From contig JAURVQ010000058.1 in the NCBI GenBank assembly GCA_030655395.1, positions 1-43,118 on the forward strand: a stretch of DNA of 43,118 bases, read 5' to 3'. Position 1 is the stretch's first letter. Every line of letters begins with the position of its first letter. The stretch comes from Gammaproteobacteria bacterium (GTDB lineage Bacteria; Pseudomonadota; Gammaproteobacteria; SURF-13). Under the pieces are notes generated by a model. The model made no database searches. It was not told where the DNA came from and saw nothing but the letters and a program-made list of their open reading frames with translations. The position numbers and the translations under genes were made by a program. Shown here one piece after another: positions 7,470 to 27,542 of the stretch.

Positions 7470-7560
7470 GCAGGTGATTATGGCAAACCTTAATGGGGGA
7501 TACCACCAATCAAAAAGCACACGTGATCAGATATTGCATTAACACATTCCCCTGCAACAC

Positions 7561-7615
7561 ACTATCCCGCCAGCCGCACGCAGCGCAAAATCTCATATGA
7601 GTATTGCCCGCCCAG
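7561..7615. repeat. Direct repeat, right copy (native recQ 3' end)
   Basis: This is the native member of the 55-bp pair. It contains the recQ stop codon (TAG, complement of 7562-7564) and the last 17 codons. See the left copy at 4959-5013. Confidence 0.93.
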
Positions 7616-9703
7616 TGCCTCGTACACCGGCTTGAGCGCCTGTCCGCTGCTGGCGTGCAGTGCTGCGTGGATGCGGGCGAAGTCTTCTTCATCCAGCGGC
7701 ACCACATCGCGCAGTTTGAGCTCGCCGCGCGTGATGGCGAGGGTAAGGTGGTGGTAGATGGTGGTCTGTTTCAGGCCGCGGCGGTCGGCGATGGCGGGGG
7801 CGTCCAGGCCGAGGCGGAACAGGTGCAGGGTTTCGGCGGCGGTGTCTGAGAGGGCGGTGGTTTGGTCATCCTGCGCGAGGATGGTTTCGAGAAAATCCTC
7901 GCCGTAGGCGGCGAGTTTGCGTTCGCCGACGCCGGAGATGTGCGCGAGTTCTTCCAGCGTTTGCGGGCGGCGCTGAACCATTTCGGTGAGGGTGGCGTCG
8001 TGGAAGACGACGTAGGGCGGCACGCCCTGCGCCAGCGCGAGTTCGCGGCGGCGGGCGCGCAGGGCTTCCCACAGCATCAAGTCGGCTTCGCTGGTGAAGG
8101 CGGCACTGTGCTTCTGGCCTTTGACCCCCACCCTGCCCTCGCCCTTCAACGCTGAGGTTTTGGTTTTGACGGGGTCGCGGCGCAGCCACAGGCGCTCGTC
8201 ACCGCGCAGCACGGGGCGGCAGGCGTCGGTGAGTTGCAGCGCGCCGTGGCCTTCGATGTCCACGGCGAGCAGACCGCGCGCGATGAGCTGACGGAAGATG
8301 CTGCGCCATTCCTGCTGGCTCAAGTCCTTGCCGATGCCGAAGGTGCTCGACTTGTCGTGGCCGAAGCGCAGGATGCGCTCATCTGTTTTGCCCATCAGCA
8401 CGTCGAGTAAATAATTCACGCCAAATCTTTGCCCGGTGCGGTGTACGCAGGAGAGTGCTTTCTGTGCGGGCACGGAGGCGTCCCAGGTTTCGGGCGGGTT
8501 GATGCAGGTGTCGCAGTTGCCGCAGGGGTTGGGCTGCGCGTCGTCGAAGTAGGCGAGCAGCGCCTGACGGCGGCAGGTGGTGAGTTCGCACAGGCCGAGC
8601 ATGGCGTCGAGCTTGTGGCGCTCGACGCGTTTGCGCGCAGCATCGGCCTCGCCGGCTTCGAGCATCTGGCGCAGCGTAATCACATCCTGCAGGCCGTAGA
8701 TCATCCACGCATCGGCGGGCAGACCGTCGCGCCCGGCGCGCCCGGTTTCCTGATACTAGGCCTCGATGCTCTTCGGCAGGTTGAGGTGCGCGACGAAACG
8801 TACATTGGGTTTGTCGATGCCCATGCCGAAAGCGATGGTGGCGACGATGATGACGCCTTCCTCGTTGATGAAGCGCGACTGGTTGCGCTCGCGCACTTCA
8901 GCGGAAAGCCCGGCGTGATAAAGCAGCGCGTCGAGGCCTTGATCTTTAAGCCAGGCGGCGATCTCATCCACGCGCTTGCGCGACAAACAGTAGACGATGC
9001 CGGCGTCGCCCGGATGTTCGCTGCGGATGAAGCGCAGCAGCTGTTCGCGCGCGCTGCCGCCCGCGTTGGTTTGGCTGATGCGGTAGCGGATGTTGGGGCG
9101 ATCGAACCCGCTGATGAAAACGCGCGCGTTTTCGAGGCCGAGGCGCGTGATGATTTCGCGCCGCGTAGGCTCGTCGGCGGTGGCGGTGAGCGCGATGCGC
9201 GGGATGGCGGGGAAGCGCTCGTGCAGCACCGAGAGCTGCATGTACTCGGGGCGGAAGTCGTGGCCCCACTGCGAGACACAGTGCGCCTCGTCGATGGCGA
9301 ACAGCGCAATGTTCGCGCGCGCCAGCAGGTCGAGCGTGCGCTCGGTCATCAGGCGCTCGGGCGCGATGTAGAGCAGGTCGAGTTCGCCGCGCAGAAGCTG
9401 CTGTTCGACCGCGCGCGCCGTGGTGGCATCGAGCGTGGAATTCAACAACGCTGCGCGCACGCCGGCCTGCTTCAGCGCCGCCACTTGATCCTGCATCAGT
9501 GAAATCAGCGGCGAGATGACGACGCCCGTGCCGGGGCGCACGATGGACGGAATCTGGAAGCAGAGCGACTTGCCGCCGCCGGTGGGCATCAGCACCAGCG
9601 CATCGCTGCCCGCCATGAGGGCGTGGATGACCTCGTCCTGCGGCGCGCGGAAGCGTTCGTAGCCGAAGACGCTGCGCAGAATGTGGAGGGGCTGGTCTTG
9701 CAT
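7562..9703 (-). pseudogene. recQ: ATP-dependent DNA helicase RecQ, interrupted by one in-frame TAG
   Basis: Read through one stop, the frame gives 713 residues. The first part has Walker A ([15 protein letters not shown]), DEAH ([18 protein letters not shown]) and SFII motifs IV-V. The second part has the zinc site (CELTTCRR...NPCGNCDTC), the RQC region, an HRDC domain and an extra helical C-terminus. At 8756-8758 (codon 316) TAG replaces the first Tyr of the conserved YYQETGRAGRDG (motif VI, arginine finger). There is no frameshift and the rest of the frame is intact. As written, the product stops before motif VI and should be inactive. It may be a recent nonsense mutation or a sequencing error. 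The 3' end is duplicated at 4959. Confidence 0.9.
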
Positions 9704-11027: not shown

Positions 11028-11888
11028 ATGCGTCGGTTTTTAACAGCATTATTTGCGGCGCTGTCGCTTTGCGGGTTAACCCCCGTTTTGGCGGAAGACC
11101 CAGCCGCTGTCCCCGCAGCAGCGCCTGCCGCTGAGGTTACTGCGGCCCCCGCTGTTCCTGCCGCGCCCACGCCTCAGCCGATGCCGAATGGCGTGCTCAA
11201 GCTGGTGGGCAACATTGAGGCCGGCAAGAAGATTTTCAACGAAGGCAAGGGCGAGGCCCCGCCTTGCATGTCTTGCCATGGCGAGACAGGCTTGGGCGAT
11301 GACAACATGGGCACGCCGCGGCTGTCAGGACAGGGCTTTGTCTATCTCAGAAAGCAGTTGTATGAGTTTGCCACCGACCACCGCACCGATACCACCATGG
11401 GTGTGATGAACGGCGTGGCCAAGGCCCTCTCCGACCAGGACAAGGCGGATATCTCCGCCTATGAGTCCAGCGTACAGCAGGGCGCCCTCGCTGCCGCCTC
11501 GAATCTGGAAGAGATCAAGGCCGCCGGCGCCGTGCCGGTGGGCGAACGCCACCTCGGCAAGGGTATCGTGCTGTACGGCATCCCCGAACAGGGCGTGGCG
11601 GCGTGCAGCAGTTGCCATCAGTACAATGGCCGCGGCGCGTTGCCGGTCTACCCCATCATCGGCGGACAGCGCTACGTCTACCTCGTGACCCAGTTGAAGA
11701 AATGGCGTGACGGCAGCCGCGCCAACGATCCGCTGGCGCAGATGCGCGTGGTGGCCTCCAAGCTCAAGGACGAGGACATCTACAACGTCGCTGCTTACCT
11801 CACCAGCGCGCCGACCATTGGCGGCGGCAATTCACGCGAGCCGCACCAGGCGCAGCCCGCGGCAGCAGGAGCGGTAGCCGCACACTGA
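11028..11888 (+). CDS. Periplasmic diheme cytochrome c, c4-like
   Basis: This 286-residue protein has a signal peptide (1-22, PVLA/ED), then an Ala/Pro-rich linker (about 24-53), then two cytochrome c domains with CxxCH at 80-84 (CMSCH) and 193-197 (CSSCH). The two-domain arrangement resembles cytochrome c4, which carries electrons from the bc1 complex to terminal oxidases. Candidate axial methionines are in DNMG and DPLAQMRVV. GGGAGGA lies 9 nt before ATG. It opens the cytochrome island and is followed by a strong hairpin terminator. Confidence 0.93.
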   Translation: MRRFLTALFAALSLCGLTPVLAEDPAAVPAAAPAAEVTAAPAVPAAPTPQPMPNGVLKLVGNIEAGKKIFNEGKGEAPPCMSCHGETGLGDDNMGTPRLSGQGFVYLRKQLYEFATDHRTDTTMGVMNGVAKALSDQDKADISAYESSVQQGALAAASNLEEIKAAGAVPVGERHLGKGIVLYGIPEQGVAACSSCHQYNGRGALPVYPIIGGQRYVYLVTQLKKWRDGSRANDPLAQMRVVASKLKDEDIYNVAAYLTSAPTIGGGNSREPHQAQPAAAGAVAAH

Positions 11889-12042: not shown

Positions 12043-12109
12043 CGGTCAAATTTATTGACTATCCGTAATCTCCAGGTTAGGCCAAGTTATTTTGCTGCGG
12101 CAGGCATTG

Positions 12110-12706
12110 ATGGAACGTAAACAATTACTCAAGCCCGGTGAAAAGGTGCTGTTTGCCGTGTTTGGCGCATTCCTGGTACTTGCGATTGCCGGTCTCGTGG
12201 TTATGGAGGTCGTGCGCGCCCACATGTCGAAACCGATGTTTGCCTCGCGCGCCTCCTTCGATCTCAGTGCCGCAGGCCGGCATGGCTCCAAGCTGTTTCG
12301 CGAGGCCGGCTGCACCGCCTGCCACCGCGCCATGCGCAACGGCACCAATCAGGGCATCGGGCTGGACGGCGTCGGCTCCCTCCGCAGCCAGCAATGGCTG
12401 GAGGCCTTTCTCAAGCACCCCGAGGCCAATTGGGCGACTGTGACTATAGATCACGGCCAGCCGCCCAAGGAGGCGGCCTACGTCGCGCAATTGCCGCCGC
12501 AGGACTTGCACGACATCGCGATGTTTCTCTCCGAGCTGAAGGCTGAGCGGGGTTCGGCGACGTCCGCCGTGCCGCCGCCCGAGATCGCGCGCTCGGGCTT
12601 CGTCAATAGCATGACCGAGATGTGGGCGCCCGAGGCGTGGAAAGAGAAATATCAGGATATCCGCCACAAAAAACCACCGGCAGGCGAAACGAATGAGCCT
12701 CAGTGA
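12110..12706 (+). CDS. Membrane-anchored monoheme cytochrome c
   Basis: This 198-residue protein has one uncleaved N-terminal membrane helix (about 13-35) and a periplasmic cytochrome c domain with a single CTACH (68-72). It shares the segment LDGVGSLRSQQW with the cytochrome at 19211 (LDGIGSLRDEQW), so the two are likely paralogs. ATG 12110 is chosen over a TTG at 12092. Its 3' end overlaps the mini-CcoN gene by 14 bp. It probably feeds electrons to, or forms a complex with, that b-type protein (inference). Confidence 0.88.
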   Translation: MERKQLLKPGEKVLFAVFGAFLVLAIAGLVVMEVVRAHMSKPMFASRASFDLSAAGRHGSKLFREAGCTACHRAMRNGTNQGIGLDGVGSLRSQQWLEAFLKHPEANWATVTIDHGQPPKEAAYVAQLPPQDLHDIAMFLSELKAERGSATSAVPPPEIARSGFVNSMTEMWAPEAWKEKYQDIRHKKPPAGETNEPQ

Positions 12707-13208
12707 GGCCTATGGCCAGGAAACCGAGTACCGGCGCTACATCCTGTGGTTTATCGCGGCCTGCGTCATTTACAGCATCATCGGGTTCTCATGGGGCGTG
12801 GCGGTGGGTATGCTGCCCGATCTGCGCGAGTTCATCAACCACCAGCCGCACGCGCACCTCATCATGCTCGGCCACGGCCACCTGAATCTGCTGGGCTGGG
12901 TCGAGATGGCTATATTCGCCGCCGTTTACTACATCGTGCCGCGCCTGGTGCGGCGCAATATCTACAGCCTGCGCCTGGTCAATATCCATTTCTGGATCCA
13001 TAACTTCGGCCTGCTCGGCATGGTGCTGTCGTTTGTCCTCGCTGGCAGCCTGGGCGGGCTCGCCAGCCAAACCATGGACCTGGACGAGGTCAATAAAATC
13101 GTGCGCCCGTTCATGATCGCGGTGGGCATGTTCGGCAGCCTGGTGCTGCTCTCCAACCTCATTTGGGCCTACAACCTGTGGCGCACCGCGCGGCGTTGGC
13201 AGCCATGA
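12693..13208 (+). CDS. Mini-CcoN: short heme-copper oxidase subunit I-like membrane protein
   Basis: This 171-residue protein has about four membrane helices. Residues 53-120 align by eye with the C-terminal helices of the full CcoN at 15153: GHGHLNLLGW here matches AHAHLALLGF there, followed by VYYIVPRLVRRNIYSLRL and NIHFWIH. The HxH heme-ligand pair is H61/H63; extra histidines are H50, H53 and H55. It lacks equivalents of the copper-binding histidines in the middle of CcoN, so it cannot be a complete oxidase. It probably binds heme b. It lies in a coupled operon cytochrome c / mini-CcoN / thioredoxin lipoprotein / membrane protein, overlapping the next gene by ATGA. Confidence 0.75.
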   Translation: MSLSEAYGQETEYRRYILWFIAACVIYSIIGFSWGVAVGMLPDLREFINHQPHAHLIMLGHGHLNLLGWVEMAIFAAVYYIVPRLVRRNIYSLRLVNIHFWIHNFGLLGMVLSFVLAGSLGGLASQTMDLDEVNKIVRPFMIAVGMFGSLVLLSNLIWAYNLWRTARRWQP

Positions 13209-13711
13209 ATATTCAAGTGATCAGCCTCCTGTGCGCCGCCTTGCTGCTCGCGGCTTGTGATACCGGCTCCAGGGTCAAGGTCGGTCAACAGGCGCCGGCC
13301 ATCGCCACCAAGACGCTGGCCGACGTGGGCGGCGACTTCGGCAAGATCACTACCTACCGTCATCCCGATGCGCGCATGTACCAGTATTCGATCGACCAGG
13401 CGCTTAAAGCAGGCAAGCCCATCGTGCTTGCCTTCGCCACGCCCGGCCACTGCACGCCGTGCGACCAGCAGCTGCAGATGCTGAAGGCGATGATCGACAA
13501 GCATCAGGATCGCGTGCTGTTTCTGCACCTGGATCAATACCAGAACCCGCAGGCCTTCAAGGCCTTCGGGGTGATGGGCGACCCGTGGACGTATGTCGTC
13601 GATGCGCGCGGCACGGTACGCTATGTGCAGGCCGGACGCGTGCTGTACGGCGAGCTGGAGGGGGCGCTCGCGCCGCTGCTGGTTGCCTCCCCGCAGGCGG
13701 CGCAACGATGA
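13205..13711 (+). CDS. Thioredoxin-like lipoprotein
   Basis: This 168-residue protein has a lipoprotein signal (LLLAAC, lipidated Cys at 18) and a thioredoxin fold with CTPC (83-86) in FATPGHCTPCDQQL. A later segment, GDPWTYVVDARG, corresponds to the cis-Pro region. It probably acts in the periplasm as a thiol reductant or oxidant, perhaps in c-heme attachment or copper-site assembly for its neighbours (inference). ATG 13205 overlaps the previous stop by 4 bp (ATGA), and its own stop overlaps the next start in the same way. Confidence 0.88.
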   Translation: MNIQVISLLCAALLLAACDTGSRVKVGQQAPAIATKTLADVGGDFGKITTYRHPDARMYQYSIDQALKAGKPIVLAFATPGHCTPCDQQLQMLKAMIDKHQDRVLFLHLDQYQNPQAFKAFGVMGDPWTYVVDARGTVRYVQAGRVLYGELEGALAPLLVASPQAAQR

Positions 13712-14590: not shown

Positions 14591-14887
14591 ATGGCAAAGC
14601 AAGTCAGCATGGTAAGAAAGTCCCTCATTCTGAGCCTCGTGGTAGGCATGGTGGTGGGCATGGGCAACGGCAGCGTGTTCGGCATTTATCTCATGGCCAA
14701 TCTGGGTCGCGGCCAGTTTGCCGAGTGGGGCGGCTGGGGTTGGCAGTCTTATAACCCGTTCGGTTACTTCAATGGTTTTATGACCTGGGTCATGCTGGTG
14801 TTCGGCGTCGCCTTCATCTGGATATTATTGTCCGCCCTTTATGGCCATGATAAGATGTCAAAAATTCAAGGCGGCGGTGGCCACTAG
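14591..14887 (+). CDS. Small membrane protein at head of the oxidase cluster
   Basis: This 98-residue protein has two membrane helices (about 10-36 and 60-84) separated by a Gly/Trp-rich loop (WGGWGWQSY), ending in a Gly-His tail (GGGGH). GGAG lies 7 nt before ATG 14591. No family is recognised. Its place 60-270 bp ahead of a four-Cys small protein and ccoN suggests an accessory or assembly subunit of the oxidase (inference). Confidence 0.65.
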   Translation: MAKQVSMVRKSLILSLVVGMVVGMGNGSVFGIYLMANLGRGQFAEWGGWGWQSYNPFGYFNGFMTWVMLVFGVAFIWILLSALYGHDKMSKIQGGGGH

Positions 14888-14945
14888 GCCGTCCGGTCAT
14901 GATCTTACAGCCAGTTCTCACTGCAATTCCTGGGAGCAAATAACA

Positions 14946-15101
14946 ATGTTAGCGAAAATCGCCGCCGTATTCAGCATGGTCGCAGCCTTTTCCAGTATGT
15001 GGCTCGCCTGGTATCTCATGATTCCCTGCAGGGTGTGCGGCAAGGTGGGCAATCGTGGCCTGATCAAACCCTGCTGTCCGGCGCCTGGCAAGAAGGCATA
15101 A
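14946..15101 (+). CDS. 51-aa membrane protein with CxxC and CC
   Basis: This 51-residue protein has one membrane helix (about 5-25) followed by a short tail with four cysteines, C28 and C31 (CRVC) and C43 and C44 (PCCP). The arrangement could bind a metal such as Cu or Zn. GGGAG lies about 9 nt upstream of ATG. It is 52 bp upstream of ccoN and in the same direction; a role in metal delivery to the oxidase is possible but unproven. Confidence 0.65.
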   Translation: MLAKIAAVFSMVAAFSSMWLAWYLMIPCRVCGKVGNRGLIKPCCPAPGKKA

Positions 15102-15152
15102 GCCGTTCCAGCCCGAATCGAAGATTTCTGAAATTAATTTGAGGTAGCTCGC

Positions 15153-16562
15153 ATGTTGATGAAATATCTGTTTGGCAAGAACGAGGACATCCCGCCAGGC
15201 ACCGCCTCGATCTTTTTCTCCTTCTCGGCCATCGTCTGGTTCATTATCGGTACCGGCCTCGGCTCGTTTAATGCCGCCAAGCTCGCCTACCCTGACTGGG
15301 TGACGGGCTTTGAGTTCTTCGCCTTCGGCAAGATGCGCCAGGTGCATGTGATGGCGGTGATCTTCGGCTGGATCTCCATGGCCTTTGCTGCGGCCATGAT
15401 GTACATCACTCCCGCGCTCGGCAACACCAAGCTGTGGTCGGAGAAGCTTGGGCTGTGGAGCTGCATGAACTGGAACATCGGCCTCGCGGTCGGTTTGTTC
15501 ACGCTGTGGATGGGAATGACCTCCGGGCGCGAATATTCTGACTTCATCTACCCCATCGACCTGATTCTGCTGTTTGCGGTGTTGATCCCGGTATCGCTCA
15601 ACGTGTGGATGACGATTGCTAAACGCCGCACCCAGGGTATCTACACCACCAACTGGTTCTTCGCCGCCTCGCTCTTCATGCTCATGATCGTGTTGCTGGT
15701 GGGCAACCTGCCTGAATACTTCCACCTCACCGGTCTGACCGAGGCCTATCTCACCTGGTGGAATGCGCACAACATCCTGGGCCTGTGGATCACCCCGGTA
15801 GCCGCGGCCATTGCCTACTACACCATCCCCAAGATCACCGGCAACCCGCTGTACTCGCACCGCATCGGTCACCTGCACTTCTGGTCCATCGTGATCTTCT
15901 ACTCCACGCCCGCCGCGCATCACCTGATGTCCGCGCCGCTGCCGGAGTGGCTGAAGTCCTTCGCCTCGGTGGAAGGCGTGCTGATTCTGGTGCCCGCGAT
16001 TGCCTTCGTATCCAACATCCTGCTGACCTTGCAGGGCAAGTGGAACATGTTCGTGGAGAACATCGAGGTACGCTTCACCGTCACCGGCGTGCTGCTCGCC
16101 ATCCCGCTCAATATGCAGGGCGGCTTCCAGCAGACCCGTTCCATCAACTGGTACATTCACGGTACGGGCTGGATCGTGGCGCATGCGCACCTGGCCTTGC
16201 TGGGCTTCTCCACCTTCATTGAGGTCGCCGCCGTGTACTACGGTCTGCAGGTGCTCATGAAGCGCAAGCTCTACTCCCTGGCGCTGGCCAATTTCCATTT
16301 CTGGATGCTGCTCATCGGCTTCTCGATCTACTGGATCGCCATGACCATCGCCGGCCTGATTCAGGGCGCGGGCAAGATTTACGAAGTGCCGTACATCGAC
16401 ATCGTGATCGCGGAACACCCATACATGATCGCGCGCTGGTTCGGCGGCACCTTGGTGTTCCTGGGCAACTGCGTGTGGCTGTACAACATGTGGATGACGG
16501 CGCGTGAAGGCACCCCGGTGCCCGCAGGCCGCATGGTGCATGAACTGGCCTACGAGCGTTAA
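15153..16562 (+). CDS. ccoN: C-family (cbb3-like) heme-copper oxidase catalytic subunit CcoN, divergent
   Basis: This 469-residue protein has about 12 membrane helices. Ligands can be placed by comparison with known CcoN: low-spin heme H65 (GKMRQVHVMAVIFGW) and H346; copper/FeB ligands H206 (TWWNAHN) and H256-H257 (PAAHHL); high-spin heme H344 (VAHAHLALLGF). Y250 lies six residues before H256, as does the cross-linked Tyr of cbb3 oxidases. Subunit I with all of these should reduce O2. Odd features: the helix before HxH reads NWYIHGTGW, resembling NorB (NYYTHGT), and the acidic residue usual in canonical CcoN about 20 residues upstream of HxH appears as Gln (Q322). GAGGT precedes ATG. First of a ccoN-ccoO operon. 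Confidence 0.88.
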   Translation: MLMKYLFGKNEDIPPGTASIFFSFSAIVWFIIGTGLGSFNAAKLAYPDWVTGFEFFAFGKMRQVHVMAVIFGWISMAFAAAMMYITPALGNTKLWSEKLGLWSCMNWNIGLAVGLFTLWMGMTSGREYSDFIYPIDLILLFAVLIPVSLNVWMTIAKRRTQGIYTTNWFFAASLFMLMIVLLVGNLPEYFHLTGLTEAYLTWWNAHNILGLWITPVAAAIAYYTIPKITGNPLYSHRIGHLHFWSIVIFYSTPAAHHLMSAPLPEWLKSFASVEGVLILVPAIAFVSNILLTLQGKWNMFVENIEVRFTVTGVLLAIPLNMQGGFQQTRSINWYIHGTGWIVAHAHLALLGFSTFIEVAAVYYGLQVLMKRKLYSLALANFHFWMLLIGFSIYWIAMTIAGLIQGAGKIYEVPYIDIVIAEHPYMIARWFGGTLVFLGNCVWLYNMWMTAREGTPVPAGRMVHELAYER

Positions 16563-16589
16563 TTCTGTAGAAATTTAAGGGAGCTTAAC

Positions 16590-17540
16590 GTGGCTTTTAG
16601 AGAATATCGAATCGGCGCCGTAATGTTCGGCGCAGCGCTCAGCATGTCCATGTTCATCACGCTGGTGATGCCGAGCTTTAATATCTTCTCCGTCGGGTCC
16701 ACGGCGCTCGCCCTGGACAAGCAGTTGACCTACGGCTTCAACAGCGGCTGGAACCCGGATGACATGTTCCTGTCCGGCGCCAACAAACCGCTCAAGGTTC
16801 TGTTGAAGCAGGATCCGCAGACAGGCGCCGCGACGGAACCGGTGCATGCCTACGTGTTCCCTGTCAACGCGCGCTTTCCGAGCGGCATCCTGCACCCCAA
16901 GGTGCTGGGCGCCGGCTCTGACGTGTTGAGCGTGGAGCAGGGTAAGATCAACGAGGCCAGCGAGGCGCAGGGTGCGGTGTTCCTGGTGCGTCATGGCGAA
17001 CATGAGGGCGCCTCCTATCCGTACATCGAAAACGCCACCGCCACGCGCGGCTGGACGGCGGACGCCGTGCTGCATGCGGCGGGTGATGCCAATACCAGCC
17101 ATGCCGGTGCGGGCAAGACCATCTTTGTGCGCGAGGGCTGCTGGTGGTGCCACACCCTGCTGCCCGAGCAGACGCAGGACTTCCAGTATTTCGGCGCACC
17201 GCCTTACCTGGGTGACTTCAACGGCGAGTCGCCGACCGCATTCGGCTCCGACCGCAAGGCGCCTGACCTGCTGCACGTGGGCTCGCGCAACTCCTCCAAG
17301 GAGTGGATGATGATGCACTTCTTCAATCCACGCCTGGTGCAGCCGCACTCGATCATGCCGCGCTTTGATTATCTGTGGGGCAAAACCGACGCCGATGGCA
17401 ACAAGATCGATTATGCCGCCTGGCGCAAGGAATTCGTGCAATACCGCAACGGTGAGCGCATCACGCCGCCCGAGGTGCCGAACTACCGTAGCGATAGCGA
17501 GATTCGCTATCTCATCGACTTTGTCTTGAATCTGAAGTAG
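16590..17540 (+). CDS. ccoO: CcoO-like membrane-anchored monoheme cytochrome c with enlarged N-domain
   Basis: This 316-residue protein has one N-terminal membrane helix (about 9-28) and a periplasmic domain. The heme site CWWCH is at 184-188 in FVREGCWWCHTLLPEQ, parallel to CcoO (YIREGCYxCH). Then come GSDRKAPDLLHVGSR and HSIMPRF, with M256 the likely axial ligand. Canonical CcoO has about 200-240 residues; here roughly 100 extra residues (about 45-160) separate the helix from the heme. The start is GTG with GGGAG 7 nt upstream. It passes electrons to CcoN. Confidence 0.88.
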   Translation: MAFREYRIGAVMFGAALSMSMFITLVMPSFNIFSVGSTALALDKQLTYGFNSGWNPDDMFLSGANKPLKVLLKQDPQTGAATEPVHAYVFPVNARFPSGILHPKVLGAGSDVLSVEQGKINEASEAQGAVFLVRHGEHEGASYPYIENATATRGWTADAVLHAAGDANTSHAGAGKTIFVREGCWWCHTLLPEQTQDFQYFGAPPYLGDFNGESPTAFGSDRKAPDLLHVGSRNSSKEWMMMHFFNPRLVQPHSIMPRFDYLWGKTDADGNKIDYAAWRKEFVQYRNGERITPPEVPNYRSDSEIRYLIDFVLNLK

Positions 17541-17554
17541 TTAGGAGGAGTGTC

Positions 17555-18244
17555 ATGACCTGGAGATTTGATAATCCGCTGCGTACATTGACCAGTGATG
17601 AGCAAAACAAGACCGCCATGGAAGTATGGGAAGCGGAGAGCATGGGCGGAATTATGGAAAACAATAACCGTCTGCCGCAGCCGGTCGTTTATTTGCTGGT
17701 GCTGACGATCATATCTGCCTATCTTATTACCTTCCCCTTGTGGGGCCAGCGCCCCACCGCCGCCATCTACGAAGAGTTTGTGGCAGCGATGGACAGCCCG
17801 GAGGTTCAGGCGCTGCCGAATGACGCTGCACGCATGGACTATCTGCTGAAGCAGGCGAGTGAAAGTGGCTCCAAATATGCCACCCCTCACATCAATCACC
17901 CCATCAGCATGGATGATCTGCGTACCATTCGGCCGCAGATCGAGGCGCTCAAGGCGCAGGGCGTGGTGCTGGATGATTACACTGTGGTAGGCAACAAGGT
18001 CGTGCTGGCCAATTTCGAGGGCAATCTGCGCGCTGACGGTACCCAGGTGCGGCAGCAACCGTGGTGGGATATCGGCTACACTATCGATATCTTCTATGTG
18101 ATCTATTTCTGTCTCGCGGTGCTGATTGTGGTGAAGCGCCTGCCCCCCAATAGCGTACAGCCGCGCCATGGTAACGAACGCATGCTGAGCGACGCCGAGA
18201 TTGCCGAGCTGAGCGTGCATGGCCAAAAGAGGAGAGTAGCATGA
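17555..18244 (+). CDS. Heme-less two-TM protein at the CcoP position
   Basis: This 229-residue protein has membrane helices at about 47-66 (VVYLLVLTIISAYLI) and about 176-196 (DIFYVIYFCLAVLIVV), joined by a periplasmic loop of about 105 residues. It has no CxxCH and no cysteine motif. The first helix ends FPLWGQRP, a motif also found in the 25585 protein (FPFWGDRP), so the two may be related. AGGAGG precedes ATG. It sits where CcoP would lie in a canonical operon, with ATGA overlap to the next small gene. Probably a structural oxidase subunit (inference). Confidence 0.7.
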   Translation: MTWRFDNPLRTLTSDEQNKTAMEVWEAESMGGIMENNNRLPQPVVYLLVLTIISAYLITFPLWGQRPTAAIYEEFVAAMDSPEVQALPNDAARMDYLLKQASESGSKYATPHINHPISMDDLRTIRPQIEALKAQGVVLDDYTVVGNKVVLANFEGNLRADGTQVRQQPWWDIGYTIDIFYVIYFCLAVLIVVKRLPPNSVQPRHGNERMLSDAEIAELSVHGQKRRVA

Positions 18245-18366
18245 TAGATATCGACAACCCGCCGCTGGTTCTGGCCGGAGTAACGCTGGTAGCTTTGCTG
18301 GTCCCGGTGCTGTACAGCTTTATCGTTGACCGCTACGCACCCAACCTCTACAAAAAGAAAAAGTAG
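18241..18366 (+). CDS. 41-aa CcoQ-like small membrane protein
   Basis: This 41-residue protein has one membrane helix (about 8-29) and a basic C-terminus KKKK. Its start overlaps the previous stop by 4 bp (ATGA), with AGAGGAGAG just upstream. Size, topology and operon place resemble CcoQ, but there is no sequence signature. A strong terminator follows 40 bp later, so it ends the ccoNO operon. Confidence 0.7.
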   Translation: MIDIDNPPLVLAGVTLVALLVPVLYSFIVDRYAPNLYKKKK

Positions 18367-18457: not shown

Positions 18458-18784
18458 ATGCTTACTCCGATGTCCAGCCTCAGCCCAATGCAGCACACAG
18501 CCGCTACTGCGCCAGCCCCTCATATTGCGCTGCAAGCGCAGGATCCGGTGGCCGACGATCACGGGGTGGATAGCCTCTATAGCCAGCAGTTCAGCATCGG
18601 CGTGTTCTTTTTTATGCTGCTCGCCATTGTTTTTTTTGCCACCATTGTGATGGGATTTATGGCGGGAAAAAATGTCAAAGGACTGAAGCGTGGTGAAAAG
18701 TGGCTGTTTGCCTGGATTTTTCTCGGCATCGTAGTGGCGGTCATACTGGGCGCGCTGCAACTGCTGGGTGGTTACCTTCTTTAG
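18458..18784 (+). CDS. Two-TM membrane protein, unknown
   Basis: This is a protein of up to 108 residues with membrane helices at about 46-68 (IGVFFFMLLAIVFFATIVMGF) and 84-106, and a short basic loop between. The N-terminal ~40 residues are hydrophilic. The start is uncertain: ATG 18458 overlaps a TATAAT at 18454-18459 that could be its own -10, in which case ATG 18470 or 18488 would be used. No family is recognised. It lies between the ccoNO terminator and repeat family C copy 1. Confidence 0.65.
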   Translation: MLTPMSSLSPMQHTAATAPAPHIALQAQDPVADDHGVDSLYSQQFSIGVFFFMLLAIVFFATIVMGFMAGKNVKGLKRGEKWLFAWIFLGIVVAVILGALQLLGGYLL

Positions 18785-18916: not shown

Positions 18917-19174
18917 ATGAATACAGATATGTTGGTTGACGGCTGGACGATCTATCTCTGGCTCGTGGTTGGCGCGCTGATTCTGGTGGCGGCGGCGTTC
19001 GGCATACGCTGGGCGATGCGCAACGAACAGTTCGATGAAGACATCAAGTACGTGATGTTCAACGAAGATGACCAGGAGCGCATGGATCCGGCGGAATACA
19101 CCAAGAGCAGAGAAGTCCTGGCGCGGCAGATCAAGCGGCGCGAGGAACTGCTCAAGGAACACAAGCGCAGCTAA
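18917..19174 (+). CDS. CcoS-like cbb3 oxidase assembly protein
   Basis: This 85-residue protein has one N-terminal membrane helix (about 12-30). A segment RNEQFDEDIKYVMFNEDD follows, resembling the CcoS signature SGQFDDLEGPAHRILFDDD. CcoS is needed for cofactor insertion into cbb3 oxidases. The C-terminal ~30 residues are charged and helical (AEYTKSREVLARQIKRREEL), longer than in typical CcoS. It starts a second oxidase-related gene run directly after repeat C1. Confidence 0.65.
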   Translation: MNTDMLVDGWTIYLWLVVGALILVAAAFGIRWAMRNEQFDEDIKYVMFNEDDQERMDPAEYTKSREVLARQIKRREELLKEHKRS

Positions 19175-19210: not shown

Positions 19211-19702
19211 ATGCGTACAGGCGAAAAATGGATATGGAGCCTGATTGCGATCATTGCCTTGTGGGCCGTGGGCAGGGCGCTTTGGCAACTCGGCACGCAG
19301 CATGAGCCTGACCCAGGCATACCGTTCTATAGTACCGCGACACCTGAGATCACGCGTGCGGGGTCTGATCTTTACCGCCAGCTGAACTGCAAGAACTGCC
19401 ACACGTTGTGGACTGTGCGCGACATGTTTCAGTCGGTACCCGCCCCGGCGCTGGATGGCATTGGTTCGCTACGCGACGAGCAGTGGTTTTACAATTATTT
19501 TTCCGCAGCCGATCCGCAAACCATACTGCCTACCCGGTTAAAGCCACAATACCGCATGCCATCCTACGCGCACTTGGATGAACAGGAGCGGCGCACCCTG
19601 GCGGCCTATATGGCGAGCCTCAAGGTGCAGGACTGGTATTTGGATGAGACGCGCCAGGCGGAATACGAAAAACTGACGGGAAAGCCTTACCGCCCCCAGT
19701 AG
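19211..19702 (+). CDS. Membrane-anchored monoheme cytochrome c
   Basis: This 163-residue protein has one N-terminal membrane helix (about 8-26) and a single CKNCH (60-64) in LYRQLNCKNCHTLW. Downstream LDGIGSLRDEQW is shared with the 12110 cytochrome. M in QYRMPSY is the likely axial ligand. It is 36 bp after the CcoS-like gene and 19 bp before the SUMF1 gene, so probably in one operon. It is a candidate electron donor or CcoP substitute for the oxidase (inference). Confidence 0.88.
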   Translation: MRTGEKWIWSLIAIIALWAVGRALWQLGTQHEPDPGIPFYSTATPEITRAGSDLYRQLNCKNCHTLWTVRDMFQSVPAPALDGIGSLRDEQWFYNYFSAADPQTILPTRLKPQYRMPSYAHLDEQERRTLAAYMASLKVQDWYLDETRQAEYEKLTGKPYRPQ

Positions 19703-19721: not shown

Positions 19722-20786
19722 ATGCGTTTGATTCGGCGTAACCAACCCTTGAGCGATGCGGAGCGCCTGAAGCGCAAGCGCTATCTCACCGCCACGCTCA
19801 TTACCTGCCTGACGCTGACCATGATAGGCGGAAGCCTATACGTGGTGCAGCTCGGCGCGAACCGCCTTGCGGAAATGCGCGGCAAGGCGACCTACGACCT
19901 CAAGGAAGAGAGGTCGCGTATCCGCGCTGCGGGCGAGCAGGCGGTGCGCAGGGCCGGCGAGGCCGGGGTGGTGACAGGCGTGTACACGCCGGAGGAGGTC
20001 GAGGCGCTGCTTACGCCCGCACAGTGGGAGGAGGTCAACAGCATGATCGAAATTCCCGCCGGGCCGTTCACCATGGGCACCGGCAGCGAGCGCGCCGATG
20101 TGCAAAACCAGCCTGAGCACAGTGTGACCTTGCCTGCCTATCGTATTGATAAATACCCCGTGACCAACGCCCAATATGCCCGTTTTGTCGTTGCGACCGG
20201 GTACCCTGCGCCGGAAAACTGGATCGGAGGCAAGATGCCCAGGGGCAGGGAGTTGCACCCGGTGACGATGGTGTCATGGCATAACGCCCAAAGCTACGCG
20301 CAATGGGCGGGCAAACGCCTGCCCAGCGAGGCGGAGTGGGAGAAGGCCGCGCGCGGCGCGGACGGGCGGCGCTGGCCGTGGGGCAACGTCATGGACGCAA
20401 ACCGGATTAACACCTATTCCAATGTCGGCTCTACCACGGAAGTTACCCGCTATCAGCAAGGGGCGAGCCCCTATGGGGTGATGGATATGGCGGGCAACGT
20501 GAGCCAGTGGACGGCGGACGATTTCCTGCCCTATGAGGGCAGCAGCGCGTCGGCGGAACTGTTCAAGGCCAAGCGTGGCGTGGCCGCCTCTACCCAGGAT
20601 CGCAGTCTCAAGGTGGTGGATTTGATTATTACCGGAGAGCGTTACAAGGTGATGCGCGGCGGTTCATGGAAGAGCGACCCGTTTTCCACCTCCAGCTACC
20701 ATCGCAACTATTCGTTGCCCAACTATGCCTCGGACTTTTTTGGCTTCCGCTGTGCGCAGGATGCAAAACAACATGAACCACCGTAA
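19722..20786 (+). CDS. Membrane-anchored SUMF1/FGE-like (NirV-like) protein
   Basis: This 354-residue protein has an N-terminal membrane helix (about 23-45), a charged helical linker, then a formylglycine-generating-enzyme-like fold (about 108-345) with IPAGPFTMGT, YPVTNAQYARFV, RLPSEAEWEKAARG, MAGNVSQWT, MRGGSWKSDP and FFGFRCA. The two catalytic cysteines of FGE, normally in the GGSW region, are absent; the only Cys residues are 29 and 344. It is therefore unlikely to make formylglycine. Related proteins (NirV) occur beside denitrification and oxidase genes with unknown function. Confidence 0.85.
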   Translation: MRLIRRNQPLSDAERLKRKRYLTATLITCLTLTMIGGSLYVVQLGANRLAEMRGKATYDLKEERSRIRAAGEQAVRRAGEAGVVTGVYTPEEVEALLTPAQWEEVNSMIEIPAGPFTMGTGSERADVQNQPEHSVTLPAYRIDKYPVTNAQYARFVVATGYPAPENWIGGKMPRGRELHPVTMVSWHNAQSYAQWAGKRLPSEAEWEKAARGADGRRWPWGNVMDANRINTYSNVGSTTEVTRYQQGASPYGVMDMAGNVSQWTADDFLPYEGSSASAELFKAKRGVAASTQDRSLKVVDLIITGERYKVMRGGSWKSDPFSTSSYHRNYSLPNYASDFFGFRCAQDAKQHEPP

Positions 20787-21006: not shown

Positions 21007-21437
21007 ACAGGTTCCTCCGTGCCGGCGCGGTGCTGTTGAGCCTGACGTTTCCGCTCGTGACCCAGGCGGTCGCTGGTGTTGCGGCTCCCTGCCCAGCAGA
21101 AACGGCCAACAGCGCCGTGCCGGGATGCACCAGTGTCGAGGGAGGCGGGACCGCCGTGCAGCAGAGCCAGGAAGTGCTGCGCGGCTTTATCGAGCAGCAG
21201 CAGACGCAGCCGCCTGATGAGCAGGGGTTTGGTGCCGAGATCAAACAGAAGCGCCAAATCCTGTTTTTGATGGGTAGCGTTCTGCTCATCGGCATTTTCA
21301 CCACGCTGTCGCTGGGCATCGCCATGGCGCTCTATAACAAGCCGGTGTTTGTGGCGCACATGGTGTTTGCCGGCATCACTGCCACCTTGGCGCTGATCCA
21401 TGCCGTCACCGCCATGGTGTGGTTCTATCCTTTCTGA
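21003..21437 (+). CDS. Membrane protein with two C-terminal helices, unknown
   Basis: This 144-residue protein has a signal peptide (about 1-22), a periplasmic stretch with two cysteines (C30, C42), a Gln-rich segment (IEQQQTQPPDEQ), then two membrane helices (about 86-108 and 115-140). The GTG start at 21003 overlaps the previous stop by 4 bp, with AGGA upstream. No family is recognised. Coupled translation with the two genes before it suggests a shared complex. Confidence 0.7.
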   Translation: MNRFLRAGAVLLSLTFPLVTQAVAGVAAPCPAETANSAVPGCTSVEGGGTAVQQSQEVLRGFIEQQQTQPPDEQGFGAEIKQKRQILFLMGSVLLIGIFTTLSLGIAMALYNKPVFVAHMVFAGITATLALIHAVTAMVWFYPF

Positions 21438-21459
21438 CGCGCGTGCGCGCACTTATTTC

Positions 21460-24159
21460 GTGACCACGCGCCTCACCGCTCGCTGGGCCTGGGTGCTGGT
21501 CTTGCTCTATGGCTTCTCCGGCCTGACCGCGCTGGCGTATCAAGTACTGTGGGCGCGCATGCTGAGCCTGCAATTCGGCGTGAGCATCTTCGGCGTCATC
21601 GTCACGGTGGCGGCCTTCATGGCCGGGCTCGGCGCGGGCAGTCTCGCGGGCGCCGCGTTAAGCCGCCGGGTCAGGGCGCCGCTGTTATGGTTTGCGGCGC
21701 TGGAGGGCGCGGTGGCGCTGTTTGCCCTGCTTTCGCCGTACATTTTTCGTGTTCTGGATGCGCGGCTTGACGGTTTTGCCGCAGACGTGTCACTCAACGC
21801 CTGGTACCTCACACAAGGCGCGGCGACGCTGCTGTTGTTGCTGATCCCCGCGACGGCGCTGGGCGTGACCTTTCCGTTGATGCTGCGGGCGCTGTCCGCG
21901 TCACGCCTGGGCGTGGCGGAACTCTACGGCGTGAACACGCTGGGCGCGGTGATAGGCGCATTGCTGCCGCTGGTGTTGCTGCCCGCGCTGGGCTGGATCA
22001 GCGCCATGCGGAGTGTGGCCGGATTGGGTCTGGCCATGGCGCTCAGCGCCGCCCTGCTGGCGACGTTTTCATGGGGCAGAATCAAGCCCGGCTTGCATCA
22101 TGTCACTGTTCGCCCCGGCTTAAAGCACTTGATCGCCTACGGCGTGGTGGGCGCGGCGGCGCTGATGCTGGAAATCGCCTGGACCCGGCTATTCGGCATG
22201 ACGCTGCTGCGCACCGAATACGTCATGGCGCTCATCCTGGCCATATTTCTGTTCGGTATCGGTGTGGGGAGCCTCGCCGCGCGCACCCTGCTGCGGCGCG
22301 ACGCGCTGTTTCCGACGCTGTTTACCGCGCTGCCGCTTGCCGCCGCGGGTTTTGCCGTGCTGAGCCTGTGGTTTGTGCCGCGCCTCTCGGCCTGGGGGAG
22401 CCAAGGCGCGTTTAACTCACTGCCGCACGCGCTGACGTTGCAAGGTCTGGCGCTGGCCGCGCTGACCCTTCCGGTCACGCTCATGCTGGGCGCGTGGTTG
22501 CCGCTGCTCAGCAAGCGCCTCGGGGCCTACGATGGCGATGGCGTAGTCAGTCGCTCCCGGCGTCCTGCCTCCCGCGACATTAGTACATCCATGTACGTCA
22601 GCGGCGCCGCCCTGTATGGCGCGAATTCACTGGGCGCTGCGCTCGGCGCGCTGACGGCGGGGACGATATTGATGCCGCTGCTGGGCGCGCCCGCTACGGT
22701 GTGCATCGCCGCGCTGTTGCTGCTTCTGTGCGGCGCGGTTTGGATCACGCCGCGTTACACGCACGTTGCAGCCTGGGGCGTTGGAGGACTGCTGATCGTG
22801 CTCGCCGCCTGGCCGGTGCGTGATCTACCGCCCGTGGCGCGCCTGTTGCCGGAAGCGCAGGCCTACAGCACGGATATCTTCCGCCATGAAGATGCGCTTG
22901 CCATCACGCATGTGATCGAGCGCGCCGACGGACAACGCGTGCTGCTTACCGACCTGCAGCGCATGGATGCCGCCAGCGACCAGGCCGCCGTCGCGGTGCA
23001 GGAAAATCAGGCGCGTCTGCCGCTGCTGCTGCACCCGGCGCCGCACTCGGTATTGTTTCTGGGTCTGGGCACCGGCATCTCCGCCGCCGGTTCGCTGCCG
23101 TATCCTGATCTTGAGCGGACGGCGGTGGAGTTGTCGCAAGGTGCCATCGACGCGGCGCGCGACTGGTTTGCTCCGGTGAACGGCGGCGTGTTGACTGCGA
23201 TACATGTAACGCGTGACGATGCGCGGCGCTTTCTGCGCGCAACCGCCGCGTACTATGATGTCATCATCGGCGACCTGTTCCATCCCGATCTCGCCGGTCA
23301 CAGCGCGCTGCTGTCGGTGCAGCAGTTTGAGCGCGCGCGTGCGCGCCTCGCGCCCGGCGGTTTGTTCGTGCAATGGCTTGCGCTCAACCAGTTCGACCCG
23401 GCGTCGCTGGATGTCGTACTGGAGAGTTTCCGCCACGCGTTTCCCGGCGCGGTGCTGTTTGTCGACGGGCTGCACCTTGCGCTGGTGGGCCCGCAGCACC
23501 ATTTCTCCGGCGCGCCCGATGTACTGGCGAATCTGAACCGGCTGACCGCCGATGTGCAGAATCGGGCCACCGGCGGTGAAGGCCCGTGGACCTGGCTCGG
23601 ACGTTACTGGGGCGCCATCACGCCGCGCGTGGCGCCGCTGCAGGAAGAGTGGGCGCCGCGCATCGAGTTCCGCCTGCCGCGCGCGCGTTATGGCGGCGCC
23701 ACGCACTTGGTCGCGCTGCTCGACCGGATGTTGGCGCAGCGTCCAAGTCTGGAGCAGGCGGCGCGGGAGTTACAGGTGGCGGAGGCAGATCGCCCGGCCT
23801 TCGAGCGTGCCTACGGCGCCACCGAACTCGCACTGCGCGGCTGGCGCATGAGTTTGCAGGGCGAGGGCGAAGACGCACGCCTGCTACGCCTGGCCTATGA
23901 GGCGAATCCGCGTGACCGCTGGATCGGCTTTGCGCTGGCCGACGCCATGTTCGCCACTCTGCCGCAGGCCGTGCAGCAGGGCACAGGCGAACGCGAGGCG
24001 CTGCAAAGGGTGCTGGCGGTGCGCCCCGATCACGCCGAGGCGCTGCGCGCACTGTGGCATCTGGAGCGGACGGCGGGTCATGCCGGCGAGGCCGAACGTC
24101 TGCGCGCACGCCTCAAAGCCGCCGCCCCGCTTGATCGTGAACTGCGCGCCGGACCATAG
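21460..24159 (+). CDS. Multi-TM spermidine synthase-like (fused MFS/SpeE) protein
   Basis: This is a protein of about 899 residues. The N-terminal ~460 residues hold many membrane helices with the family start YGFSGLTALAYQVLWARML. An aminopropyltransferase-like SAM domain follows (VLFLGLGTGISAAG, then DVIIGDLFHPD and GGLFVQWLALNQF). The last ~200 residues are helical and may form TPR-like repeats. Such proteins are widespread and not shown to make spermidine; roles in exporting or modifying envelope compounds are guessed. GTG 21460 gives the usual short N-terminus; ATG 21400 would overlap the previous gene by 38 bp. It is unusual among oxidase genes. Confidence 0.85.
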   Translation: MTTRLTARWAWVLVLLYGFSGLTALAYQVLWARMLSLQFGVSIFGVIVTVAAFMAGLGAGSLAGAALSRRVRAPLLWFAALEGAVALFALLSPYIFRVLDARLDGFAADVSLNAWYLTQGAATLLLLLIPATALGVTFPLMLRALSASRLGVAELYGVNTLGAVIGALLPLVLLPALGWISAMRSVAGLGLAMALSAALLATFSWGRIKPGLHHVTVRPGLKHLIAYGVVGAAALMLEIAWTRLFGMTLLRTEYVMALILAIFLFGIGVGSLAARTLLRRDALFPTLFTALPLAAAGFAVLSLWFVPRLSAWGSQGAFNSLPHALTLQGLALAALTLPVTLMLGAWLPLLSKRLGAYDGDGVVSRSRRPASRDISTSMYVSGAALYGANSLGAALGALTAGTILMPLLGAPATVCIAALLLLLCGAVWITPRYTHVAAWGVGGLLIVLAAWPVRDLPPVARLLPEAQAYSTDIFRHEDALAITHVIERADGQRVLLTDLQRMDAASDQAAVAVQENQARLPLLLHPAPHSVLFLGLGTGISAAGSLPYPDLERTAVELSQGAIDAARDWFAPVNGGVLTAIHVTRDDARRFLRATAAYYDVIIGDLFHPDLAGHSALLSVQQFERARARLAPGGLFVQWLALNQFDPASLDVVLESFRHAFPGAVLFVDGLHLALVGPQHHFSGAPDVLANLNRLTADVQNRATGGEGPWTWLGRYWGAITPRVAPLQEEWAPRIEFRLPRARYGGATHLVALLDRMLAQRPSLEQAARELQVAEADRPAFERAYGATELALRGWRMSLQGEGEDARLLRLAYEANPRDRWIGFALADAMFATLPQAVQQGTGEREALQRVLAVRPDHAEALRALWHLERTAGHAGEAERLRARLKAAAPLDRELRAGP

Positions 24160-24241: not shown

Positions 24242-25588
24242 ATGAATACAAGCGCAAACGAAGCCCTGAACCGCATCAAGGTGACGGTGGAGACCGGCCA
24301 CGCGGTATCGAACGGCGCGGCAGTGCAGCGCTGGCGGCGTGCGGTGCAGATCGGCACGCTGCTGCTCGCCGTGCTGATTCCGGTGAGCGGGCTGTTTCGC
24401 ATCGACCCGGCCGCGGCGACCTTCGTGGTGCTCGGACGTCAAATCTGGTTTTCCGACTTTGCGCTGGTGGCCGGCTTCTGGCTGGCGCTGGCGAGTGCGC
24501 TGATTATCACCTACTCCACGCTCGGTACCGTCTTTTGCGGCTGGTCGTGTCCGCAGAATACATTGTCCGAGTGGGCCAACCGCATGACCAAGAAATTTCT
24601 CGGCAGGAATGCCGAGGTGAGTCTTGAGGGTGCAGCGGTGCGCGTCTCGCTGGGCAAGCAAAAATGGCTGAGTTGGGCGCTGCTCGGCGGCCTGTTTGTC
24701 GCAGTATCCATGGGGCTTGCGCTCATCCCGCTGTTTTATTTTTATCCGCCGGAGGTGGTGTGGTCGTTCATCACGTTCCGGCATGACATACGGCTTGCGC
24801 CGTCGCTGTACTGGATTTACACCATATTCGTGCTCATCGTATTGGTCGATGTCGCGGTGGTGCGTCATTTCTTCTGCCGCTTCATGTGCATCTACCGCGT
24901 GTGGCAGCATTCGTTCAAGACGCGCCACACGCTGCATATCGCCTATGACGCTGCGCGCGGCGAACAATGTGCCGCGTGCAATTACTGCGTCACGGTGTGC
25001 CCGGTGGACATCGACCCGCGCAATACCACGACCTTCGACAGTTGCATCAATTGCGGCCTGTGCGTCAGCGCGTGCGACTCGTTGCAATTTCCGAAAAATG
25101 AACCCGGCCTGCTGTTTTTTGAATTCGGCGAGCGCAAGTTGTCGTTGCCCGTAGGCCGGATGCTGGGCGCGGGGGTACGGCTCAAAAATAATCTGGGCAC
25201 ACTGAAGGGCCGCATCGCCTGGGTGACCCCGGTGATTGTGATCGGCCTCGTGATGTTCGGCTGGGGCAGCGTACACTATCAGCCCTATCACCTTTCCGTA
25301 TATCGCGCCGACAGCGCGCATGAGGCGACGATACACGATTACCGCATCGAGCTTGCCAACAAGCTGTATCGTCCCGGCCTGCTCAAGGTGAGCGTGAGCG
25401 GTTTATCCACGGATCGCTACCGGCTTTCCGCGCGCGAGGCCGTGTTCAGCTCCGCCGGGCGCCAGAGCCTGATACTGCACATCAATGATCTGCCGCAGGG
25501 GCTCTACACCCTGATGGTGCAGGCGGAGTCGAGTGATGGCTGGCGTATCCGCTATCGCGTGCAGCACTATGCAGGAGGTACTTCATGA
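24242..25588 (+). CDS. ccoG: CcoG/FixG-like 4Fe-4S membrane protein
   Basis: This 448-residue protein is of the FixG/CcoG family, which has Cu(II)-reductase activity and helps build the copper centre of cbb3 oxidases. It has membrane helices at about 35-60, 78-100, 140-165, 185-205 and 325-343. The motifs are CGWSCPQNTLSEW, CRFMCIY, and two ferredoxin sites CAACNYCVTVCPVDID and CINCGLCVSACD. The C-terminal Ig-like domain (about 350-445) is typical of FixG. It is followed at 4-bp overlap by the 25585 gene. Confidence 0.93.
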   Translation: MNTSANEALNRIKVTVETGHAVSNGAAVQRWRRAVQIGTLLLAVLIPVSGLFRIDPAAATFVVLGRQIWFSDFALVAGFWLALASALIITYSTLGTVFCGWSCPQNTLSEWANRMTKKFLGRNAEVSLEGAAVRVSLGKQKWLSWALLGGLFVAVSMGLALIPLFYFYPPEVVWSFITFRHDIRLAPSLYWIYTIFVLIVLVDVAVVRHFFCRFMCIYRVWQHSFKTRHTLHIAYDAARGEQCAACNYCVTVCPVDIDPRNTTTFDSCINCGLCVSACDSLQFPKNEPGLLFFEFGERKLSLPVGRMLGAGVRLKNNLGTLKGRIAWVTPVIVIGLVMFGWGSVHYQPYHLSVYRADSAHEATIHDYRIELANKLYRPGLLKVSVSGLSTDRYRLSAREAVFSSAGRQSLILHINDLPQGLYTLMVQAESSDGWRIRYRVQHYAGGTS

Positions 25589-26510: not shown

Positions 26511-27018
26511 GCGCCGCGATACGCTTCTGTAGCGCCGGACTTTCCACCCAGTGACGCAGCAACAGGACTTTCTCGCCGCCGCGCTCGGATGCGCAGTGCG
26601 GGCAGGTGAGGTGGCTGAGATATAATTCCAACGGCCTGCGTCCCAGATTTACGAGCTCGCTCTGCATCTGTTTTACGCTGCGCGAAATGTCCGTAATGCT
26701 GCCGTGATGCAGAAAACCGCGCACCTGAAACGGTGAGGGGAGAAACGTGAGTCCGTAGGCGGGTGAGGCGGACGGTTCCAGCAGGCGCAGAAGTTTTCCC
26801 CGCAGCAGCCCGGTGCGAATCAGCACCAGGCCCGGCCAGCGCTGCTTGAGCTTGAGCCGCTCCAGCGTCTGGCGCTGGCGCTCCGCGCGCAGTTCATAGC
26901 CGATGGGCATGTGCAGAAACATCGGCACCGGCGCCACATGCACCAGTTCACCGCCGAGATTGATGTCCTGCTGATGCCAGCCGGGAAAGCTGGCGGGGCA
27001 GCCGCACTCCAGTCTCAT
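26500..27018 (-). CDS. Unknown protein with two Cys pairs, coupled to mini-CcoN 2
   Basis: This 172-residue soluble protein has C5 and C7 near the N-terminus and C139/C142 (TCPHC) near the C-terminus, which could form one zinc site. The interior has repeated hydrophobic/His segments (VPMFLHMPIGYEL, FQVRGFLHHGSI) and a predicted helix with SVKQMQSELVNLGRRPLEL. No family is recognised. ATG 27018 overlaps the stop of the upstream mini-CcoN gene by 4 bp. A longer frame reaching 27234 is a shadow inside that gene. Confidence 0.72.
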   Translation of the reverse strand: MRLECGCPASFPGWHQQDINLGGELVHVAPVPMFLHMPIGYELRAERQRQTLERLKLKQRWPGLVLIRTGLLRGKLLRLLEPSASPAYGLTFLPSPFQVRGFLHHGSITDISRSVKQMQSELVNLGRRPLELYLSHLTCPHCASERGGEKVLLLRHWVESPALQKRIAARPI

Positions 27019-27542
27019 CCGCGTGTTTTGTAAGCGCTTCTCAGGGTGAGGAAGATGTTGGCGAAGTAGCACCAGAAGCCGATGCCCATCGCGGTGGAAA
27101 CCGTTGCGATGATCGGGGGGTAGTAGCGGTGTACATCCGCTATGGCAGCGGGATGGGTGAGCAACAGATTGCCTTCCCAGATGCCGAATGTGAGCAGGGT
27201 GGAGTAAAAGCCGGTCACGCCGAGCGTGATCCACCAGAAGGTGTGTTCCACCAGGCGCTGCGAATACAGCGGGCGCTGGGTGAGGATAGGCAACAGGTAA
27301 TAGCTTACGGCCATGATGAGCAGCACCACGCCGCCGACCATGTTGATGTGGGCATGCGCGAGCGGGTCGATCATGCGTCCCGGGCCGCCGTAAGGGCTGC
27401 CGATGGAGTCGAGCCAGGCGCGGATCGGATGCGTGATCTGCAACACGCCATGCACCGTGCCCACGAAGAAAAACGTGGTCGACATCATGACGAACTTGAT
27501 GAGTGGATGGTGTGGGGCGGACATGGGCATGGACTGCGGCAT
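27015..27542 (-). CDS. Mini-CcoN 2: short heme-copper oxidase subunit I-like protein
   Basis: This 175-residue protein has four membrane helices. The second carries DPLAHAHINMVGG, aligning with VAHAHLALLGF of CcoN (HxH at H63/H65), followed by SYYLLPILTQRPLYSQRL, matching CcoN and mini-CcoN 1. H31 in the first helix (FVGTVHGVLQITHP) could be the second axial ligand of a heme b, like H65 of CcoN. Equivalents of the CcoN copper-site histidines are missing. It is divergent in sequence from the 12693 protein, so not a recent duplicate. It forms a two-gene operon with the Cys-pair protein. Confidence 0.75.
   Translation of the reverse strand: MPQSMPMSAPHHPLIKFVMMSTTFFFVGTVHGVLQITHPIRAWLDSIGSPYGGPGRMIDPLAHAHINMVGGVVLLIMAVSYYLLPILTQRPLYSQRLVEHTFWWITLGVTGFYSTLLTFGIWEGNLLLTHPAAIADVHRYYPPIIATVSTAMGIGFWCYFANIFLTLRSAYKTRG

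Follow-up and report, generated by a model that had tools for sequence, protein, structure and literature searches.

A C-family heme-copper oxidase with an apparently heme-less CcoP-type third subunit and an enlarged CcoO

The oxidase locus and its conservation

The DNA analysed here (the window) is a stretch of 43,118 nucleotides, contig JAURVQ010000058.1 of the gammaproteobacterial assembly GCA_030655395.1. Since the source genome is a 1.72-Mb draft of 120 contigs (97.9% complete), absences from it are not absolute. At positions 14591-18366, a sequence-only reading had described an oxidase operon, and all of its genes were found at the positions given there. They lie within a longer run of conserved genes, for which 80 related loci were fetched for comparison; the counts out of 80 below refer to these loci. 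The features of the upstream block and the operon are as follows:

11028..11888, + strand: di-heme cytochrome c, upstream block; two PF00034 domains; within reach in 54/80 loci
12092..12706, + strand: second anchored mono-heme cytochrome c, upstream block; PF00034, 40 bits
12693..13208, + strand: half-size CcoN-like protein, upstream block; COX1, 69 bits; invariant H61 and H63
13163..13711, + strand: thioredoxin-like protein, upstream block; PF00578, 30.6 bits; 52/80 loci
14591..14887, + strand: pA, 98-aa membrane protein; homologues in 80/80 loci
14949..15101, + strand: pB, 50-aa single-helix peptide; homologues in 66/80 loci
15153..16562, + strand: ccoN, catalytic subunit, 469 aa; assigned by COX1, PDB match, tree and ligands
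16590..17540, + strand: ccoO, mono-heme subunit, 316 aa, enlarged; PF02433, one CXXCH
17555..18244, + strand: 229-aa heme-less subunit, predicted CcoP N-terminal anchor, periplasmic loop and second helix; FixP_N and profile match
18241..18366, + strand: 41-aa single-helix peptide
18458..18784, + strand: 108-aa membrane protein conserved in the operon; 74/80 loci
18917..19174, + strand: CcoS/FixS-like maturation protein; PF03597, 21.5 bits, below the Pfam cut-off; 74/80 loci
19211..19702, + strand: membrane-anchored mono-heme cytochrome c; PF00034, 36.8 bits; 76/80 loci
19722..20786, + strand: FGE-sulfatase-family protein, membrane-anchored; PF03781, 186.5 bits; 70/80 loci
21400-24159, + strand: 919-aa membrane protein with a spermine/spermidine-synthase domain; operon member in 60/80 loci
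24242..25588, + strand: CcoG-like polyferredoxin of an assembly factor family; TIGR02745, 127.6 bits against a cut-off of 316.7; 52/80 loci

Described as unusual in the sequence-only reading, the system is no isolated case and belongs to a widespread clade whose 80 loci span several classes, with carriers including Nitrotoga, Gallionella, Sideroxydans, Ferrovum, Mariprofundaceae and Chromatiaceae. Most of these loci keep one order: pA, pB, ccoN, ccoO, the 229-aa, 41-aa and 108-aa genes, ccoS, the cytochrome c gene, the FGE-family gene, p93, p145, the spermine-synthase-like gene and ccoG. The same order was found in more genomes of the phylum (L161-L163); in a few loci (L081, L107) the genes stand in another arrangement. 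As gene content and order are kept across classes, chance can be excluded as their origin. A relative of the same family (G003) has a CcoN that is 94% identical to the window CcoN.

The small proteins around the oxidase genes proved to be real members of this set. Homologues of pA share the motif TGMGNGSVFGA; most pB homologues are shorter than pB itself, with about 30 aa and one helix (AFSSMW.SWY..MP). Two small proteins had been predicted ahead of ccoN, one with four cysteines; both are present, but the cysteines of pB occur in only 2 of its 66 homologues and are specific to its own family, so that we rejected them as a conserved metal site. The 41-aa peptide predicted after the 229-aa gene is likewise present, with detectable homologues in 59 of the 80 loci. 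The FGE-sulfatase-family protein belongs to the conserved operon, although we know of no link between that family and oxidases.

Elsewhere in the window, a BsuBI/PstI-type endonuclease lies beside an Eco57I-type methylase as a restriction-modification pair (5059-7520, - strand). The C-terminal domains of RecQ (zinc-binding, RQC and HRDC) occupy their own open frame (7562-8704, - strand). The adjacent frame 8756-9703 may hold the helicase part, which would point to a frame break.

The third subunit and the enlargement of CcoO

In canonical cbb3 oxidases, electrons pass from cytochrome c through the hemes of CcoP to CcoO, and from there to heme b and the b3-CuB centre (PMC7876108). In the window, the gene following ccoO encodes a 229-aa protein that lacks CXXCH, as do all 76 of its complete homologues, and in complete loci this gene always adjoins ccoO. 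The protein scored 23.5 against FixP_N, the CcoP anchor domain, just below the cut-off of 24.9, and 12 of 24 homologues matched FixP_N with E values up to 0.1. When the family profile was compared with ten canonical CcoP proteins, the match ran from the anchor motif across the helix and ended a little ahead of the first heme (E 1.7e-6), at a probability of 89.9 that is not near 100. The family profile did not find CcoP among PDB sequences, and a PDB fold search with the 229-aa protein returned no significant match. These comparisons indicate that the third subunit is a heme-less homologue of the CcoP N-terminal anchor, keeping the anchor helix and the motif before it without the heme domain, and adding a second helix after a loop of about 100 aa. 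The sequence-only reading was thus right that the protein is heme-less, has two membrane helices and is no diheme CcoP, but the protein is related to CcoP all the same. The N-terminal region of CcoP probably lines the entrance to the proton channel of C-family oxidases. The anchor would have been retained since CcoN needs it structurally, and perhaps also for proton entry.

The earlier estimate of about 100 extra residues before the CcoO heme was also borne out. CcoO matched PF02433 (67.4 bits) and has a single CXXCH, making it mono-heme; its heme-domain match begins at residue 174, compared with residue 55 in 3mk7_B, which gives about 119 additional residues ahead of the heme. Counted against the relative G040 (below), the insert between membrane helix and heme is about 105 residues. 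It was modelled with pLDDT mostly of 74-94 over residues 61-170, and a PDB fold search with the modelled insert gave no significant match. We propose that the CcoO insert and the loop of the 229-aa protein touch, and that together they would form a heme-less cap at the place that is taken by the CcoP hemes in canonical cbb3.

A short form of the oxidase was found in G040:

L129 (G040 contig C157), 3079-5393, - strand: short-form oxidase relative, CcoN 61% identical to the window CcoN

The G040 CcoO has 173 aa and no insert, and its CcoP-like protein of 114 aa scores above the cut-off for FixP_N and shares the QPWWD motif of the second helix. Since both subunits are short in G040, the two periplasmic enlargements are probably later additions. 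The parsimonious reading of this one intermediate genome would place heme loss and gain of the second helix first, with the insert and some 80 aa of loop gained in the ancestor of the main clade.

It could be argued that CcoP has been split, with a separate operon cytochrome, either the di-heme cytochrome c (11028-11888) or one of the anchored mono-heme cytochromes, sitting permanently in the complex and giving a path much like that of canonical cbb3. The di-heme protein does match the CcoP model, at 36.3 bits, and its gene is linked in the 54 loci noted above. That score is, however, far under the CcoP cut-off of 179.95, both candidates are ordinary class I cytochromes, and the di-heme gene is not within reach in many loci (e.g. 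L052, L087 and L096), in contrast to the constant pairing of the 229-aa gene with ccoO. We consider a split CcoP unlikely.

The catalytic subunit and the oxidase complement of the genome

The window CcoN matched COX1 with 252.6 bits, and its best PDB matches were canonical cbb3 structures (P. stutzeri CcoN 3mk7_A, E 6e-65). Against TIGR00780, the model for canonical CcoN, it scored 231.7 bits, under the cut-off of 583.15. The sequence-only reading had held all cofactor ligands of CcoN to be present, and this proved correct: the histidines of the b hemes and CuB (H60, H207, H257, H258, H345 and H347, P. stutzeri numbers) are invariant in 31 clade members, as is the helix-VII cross-link tyrosine, Y251 of P. 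stutzeri and Y250 of the window CcoN. A maximum-likelihood tree of CcoN with oxygen and NO reductases, which that reading had called for, placed the window clade, including the 61%-identical G040 protein (support 96/98), beside canonical CcoN (100/100) and not within it; NO reductases and other oxidases branched outside all CcoN, whose common node had support of 100/99. Among the matches listed from 398 genomes of the phylum, CcoN identities to the window protein were either at least 68% or at most 34%, and the sole intermediate in the relatives search was G040. By its ligands, the window enzyme is predicted to be an intact C-family (cbb3-type) heme-copper oxygen reductase of a distinct clade.

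The residues S236, H243, N289, T293, Y237, S240, Y317 and E323 (P. stutzeri numbers) we take to belong to the C-family channel region. Throughout the 31 members, S236, H243, N289 and T293 are kept, and Y237 is replaced by H, S240 by G, Y317 by A and E323 by Q. As E323Q and Y317A run through the whole clade, the proton path may be altered relative to canonical cbb3.

The glutamine at the E323 position and the differences at several other channel positions might also point to an NO reductase, or to another non-oxygen enzyme derived from the C-family. NO reductases (cNOR and qNOR) lack the cross-link tyrosine, which is invariant here along with the three CuB histidines. The NorB match of the window CcoN in the PDB search was weak (E 1.7e-6), the NO reductases fell outside all CcoN in the tree, and the enzyme is the only recognisable terminal oxidase of its genome. 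An NO reductase identity was rejected on these grounds, and any non-oxygen function is, in our judgement, very improbable.

Two half-size CcoN-like proteins of about 171-175 aa with four helices are encoded in the window (12693-13208, + strand, and 27015-27542, - strand), and G040 also has one. Both window proteins keep the two helix-X histidines of CcoN, and the first is conserved together with the operon block; these proteins could bind heme or help assembly.

The genome encodes one full COX1-family protein, and no cytochrome bd was found in it. Canonical FixP_N was absent from nine genomes (this one, five family relatives, G026, G027 and G041), and a second full C-family CcoN was absent from the five family relatives, G026, G027 and G041. 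With no other full heme-copper oxidase, bd oxidase or canonical CcoP recognised, the window enzyme should be the organism's working O2 reductase, as far as gene content can tell, and it must then function in the absence of CcoP hemes, unless these are replaced by another cytochrome. In line with this, cbb3-type oxidases have been reported as the only ones in the genera Nitrotoga and SURF-13 (PMC12361377). A CcoP at another place in the genome was rejected: one weak match, on contig C26, sits in a frame without CXXCH. That this is an ordinary cbb3 oxidase whose CcoP gene lies in another part of the genome is scarcely credible, the draft state of the genome leaving some room for it but the missing FixP_N in nine genomes largely refuting it, with CcoN in a separate clade and the heme-less protein occupying the third-subunit place; tree and genome search thus both spoke against the case that the sequence-only reading had named as its own refutation.

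Electron input and relation to known oxidases

Since the third subunit carries no heme, electrons probably reach the enzyme along a different path, and a difference from the electron input of canonical cbb3, as first proposed from the sequence, is a sound inference. Of seven PF00034 matches in the genome, four lie within the window. The anchored mono-heme cytochrome c (19211-19702) has CXXCH in every complete homologue, and appears to be the best candidate for this input. A cytochrome c, most likely this one, would deliver electrons directly to the heme c of CcoO, from which they would pass to heme b and b3-CuB. The operon cytochromes would in turn be reduced by a lithotrophic donor or by alternative complex III, whose genes (molybdopterin subunit, NrfD and ActD) were found in the same genome at L170 (G000 contig C58, 528-7240, + strand). 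Because no match to cytochrome c1 was found anywhere in the genome, we propose alternative complex III as the route for quinol electrons. SoxB and the decaheme family TIGR03507 were searched for and not found, and a dsrA match was weak and below its cut-off. The host is a small bacterium and probably a lithotroph.

Compared with canonical CcoNOQP of P. stutzeri (3mk7/5djq) and R. capsulatus (6xkw, PMC7876108), the window system shares the CcoN ligands and tyrosine, a mono-heme CcoO, the CcoP anchor segment, and CcoS- and CcoG-like factors. Its CcoN is only about 30-34% identical, however, and carries E323Q and Y317A; in place of a di-heme CcoP it has a third subunit without heme but with a second helix and loop, and it adds the CcoO insert, the small membrane proteins and the operon cytochrome c. 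A CcoS-CcoN fused oxidase (G030, L127) also has a reduced CcoP and Q at the E323 position; unlike in the window system, its CcoP is mono-heme, its CcoO is not enlarged and it forms a separate branch.

Proximal and distal cbb3 subtrees were reportedly defined by Ducluzeau in 2008. S. lithotrophicus ES-1 has two cbb3 clusters, of two subtrees and differing subunit composition, whose responses to Fe(II) and thiosulfate are not the same (PMC8788666). Both cbb3 forms also occur in Zetaproteobacteria (PMC7029218), and we group complex IV-2 of Tenderia (PMC5371394) with the second form. Zetaproteobacterial genomes carried two CcoN, 75-77% and 32-34% identical to the window CcoN. The window system resembles this second form of the iron oxidisers in occurring in the same kinds of organism, with two forms of differing subunits. 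Judged by these organisms and by the two forms per genome, the window clade very probably corresponds to one of the two subtrees described for iron oxidisers. The oxidase of Nitrotoga fabula has been described simply as cbb3-type (PMC6050957). In the accessible literature, a search on CcoP-less cbb3 in Gallionella gave nothing relevant, and we found no description of a heme-less CcoP relative or of the paired enlargements, although these may still have been reported. What appears to be new here is the homology of the 229-aa protein to the CcoP anchor up to just before the first heme.

Taken together, we hold it probable that this is a C-family O2 reductase of a distinct clade, acting as the terminal oxidase, with a CcoP anchor without hemes and electrons passing from cytochrome c to CcoO. 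A more specific reading, plausible but tentative and to our minds short of an even chance, is that it represents a structurally distinct subclass: CcoP would have turned into a scaffold without heme, the paired enlargement of this scaffold and of CcoO would form a new periplasmic cap, and the anchored mono-heme cytochrome of the operon would feed CcoO directly, as an adaptation to lithotrophic donors of high potential, for example Fe(II) or nitrite. The only terminal oxidase recognised in this organism comes from the clade, which is also common among neutrophilic iron oxidisers and in Nitrotoga, where publications refer to it just as 'cbb3-type'. Should the third subunit be what is left of CcoP after loss of its hemes, the textbook transfer from cytochrome c through CcoP to CcoO would not hold in the carriers, and nature would have set apart what the CcoP anchor does for the structure and what the CcoP hemes do in electron transfer. 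The proposal also puts forward an electron donor, open to testing, for the final step in the respiration of iron and nitrite. Its greatest interest lies in the third subunit and the apparent natural loss of the CcoP hemes in the only oxidase that these bacteria possess.
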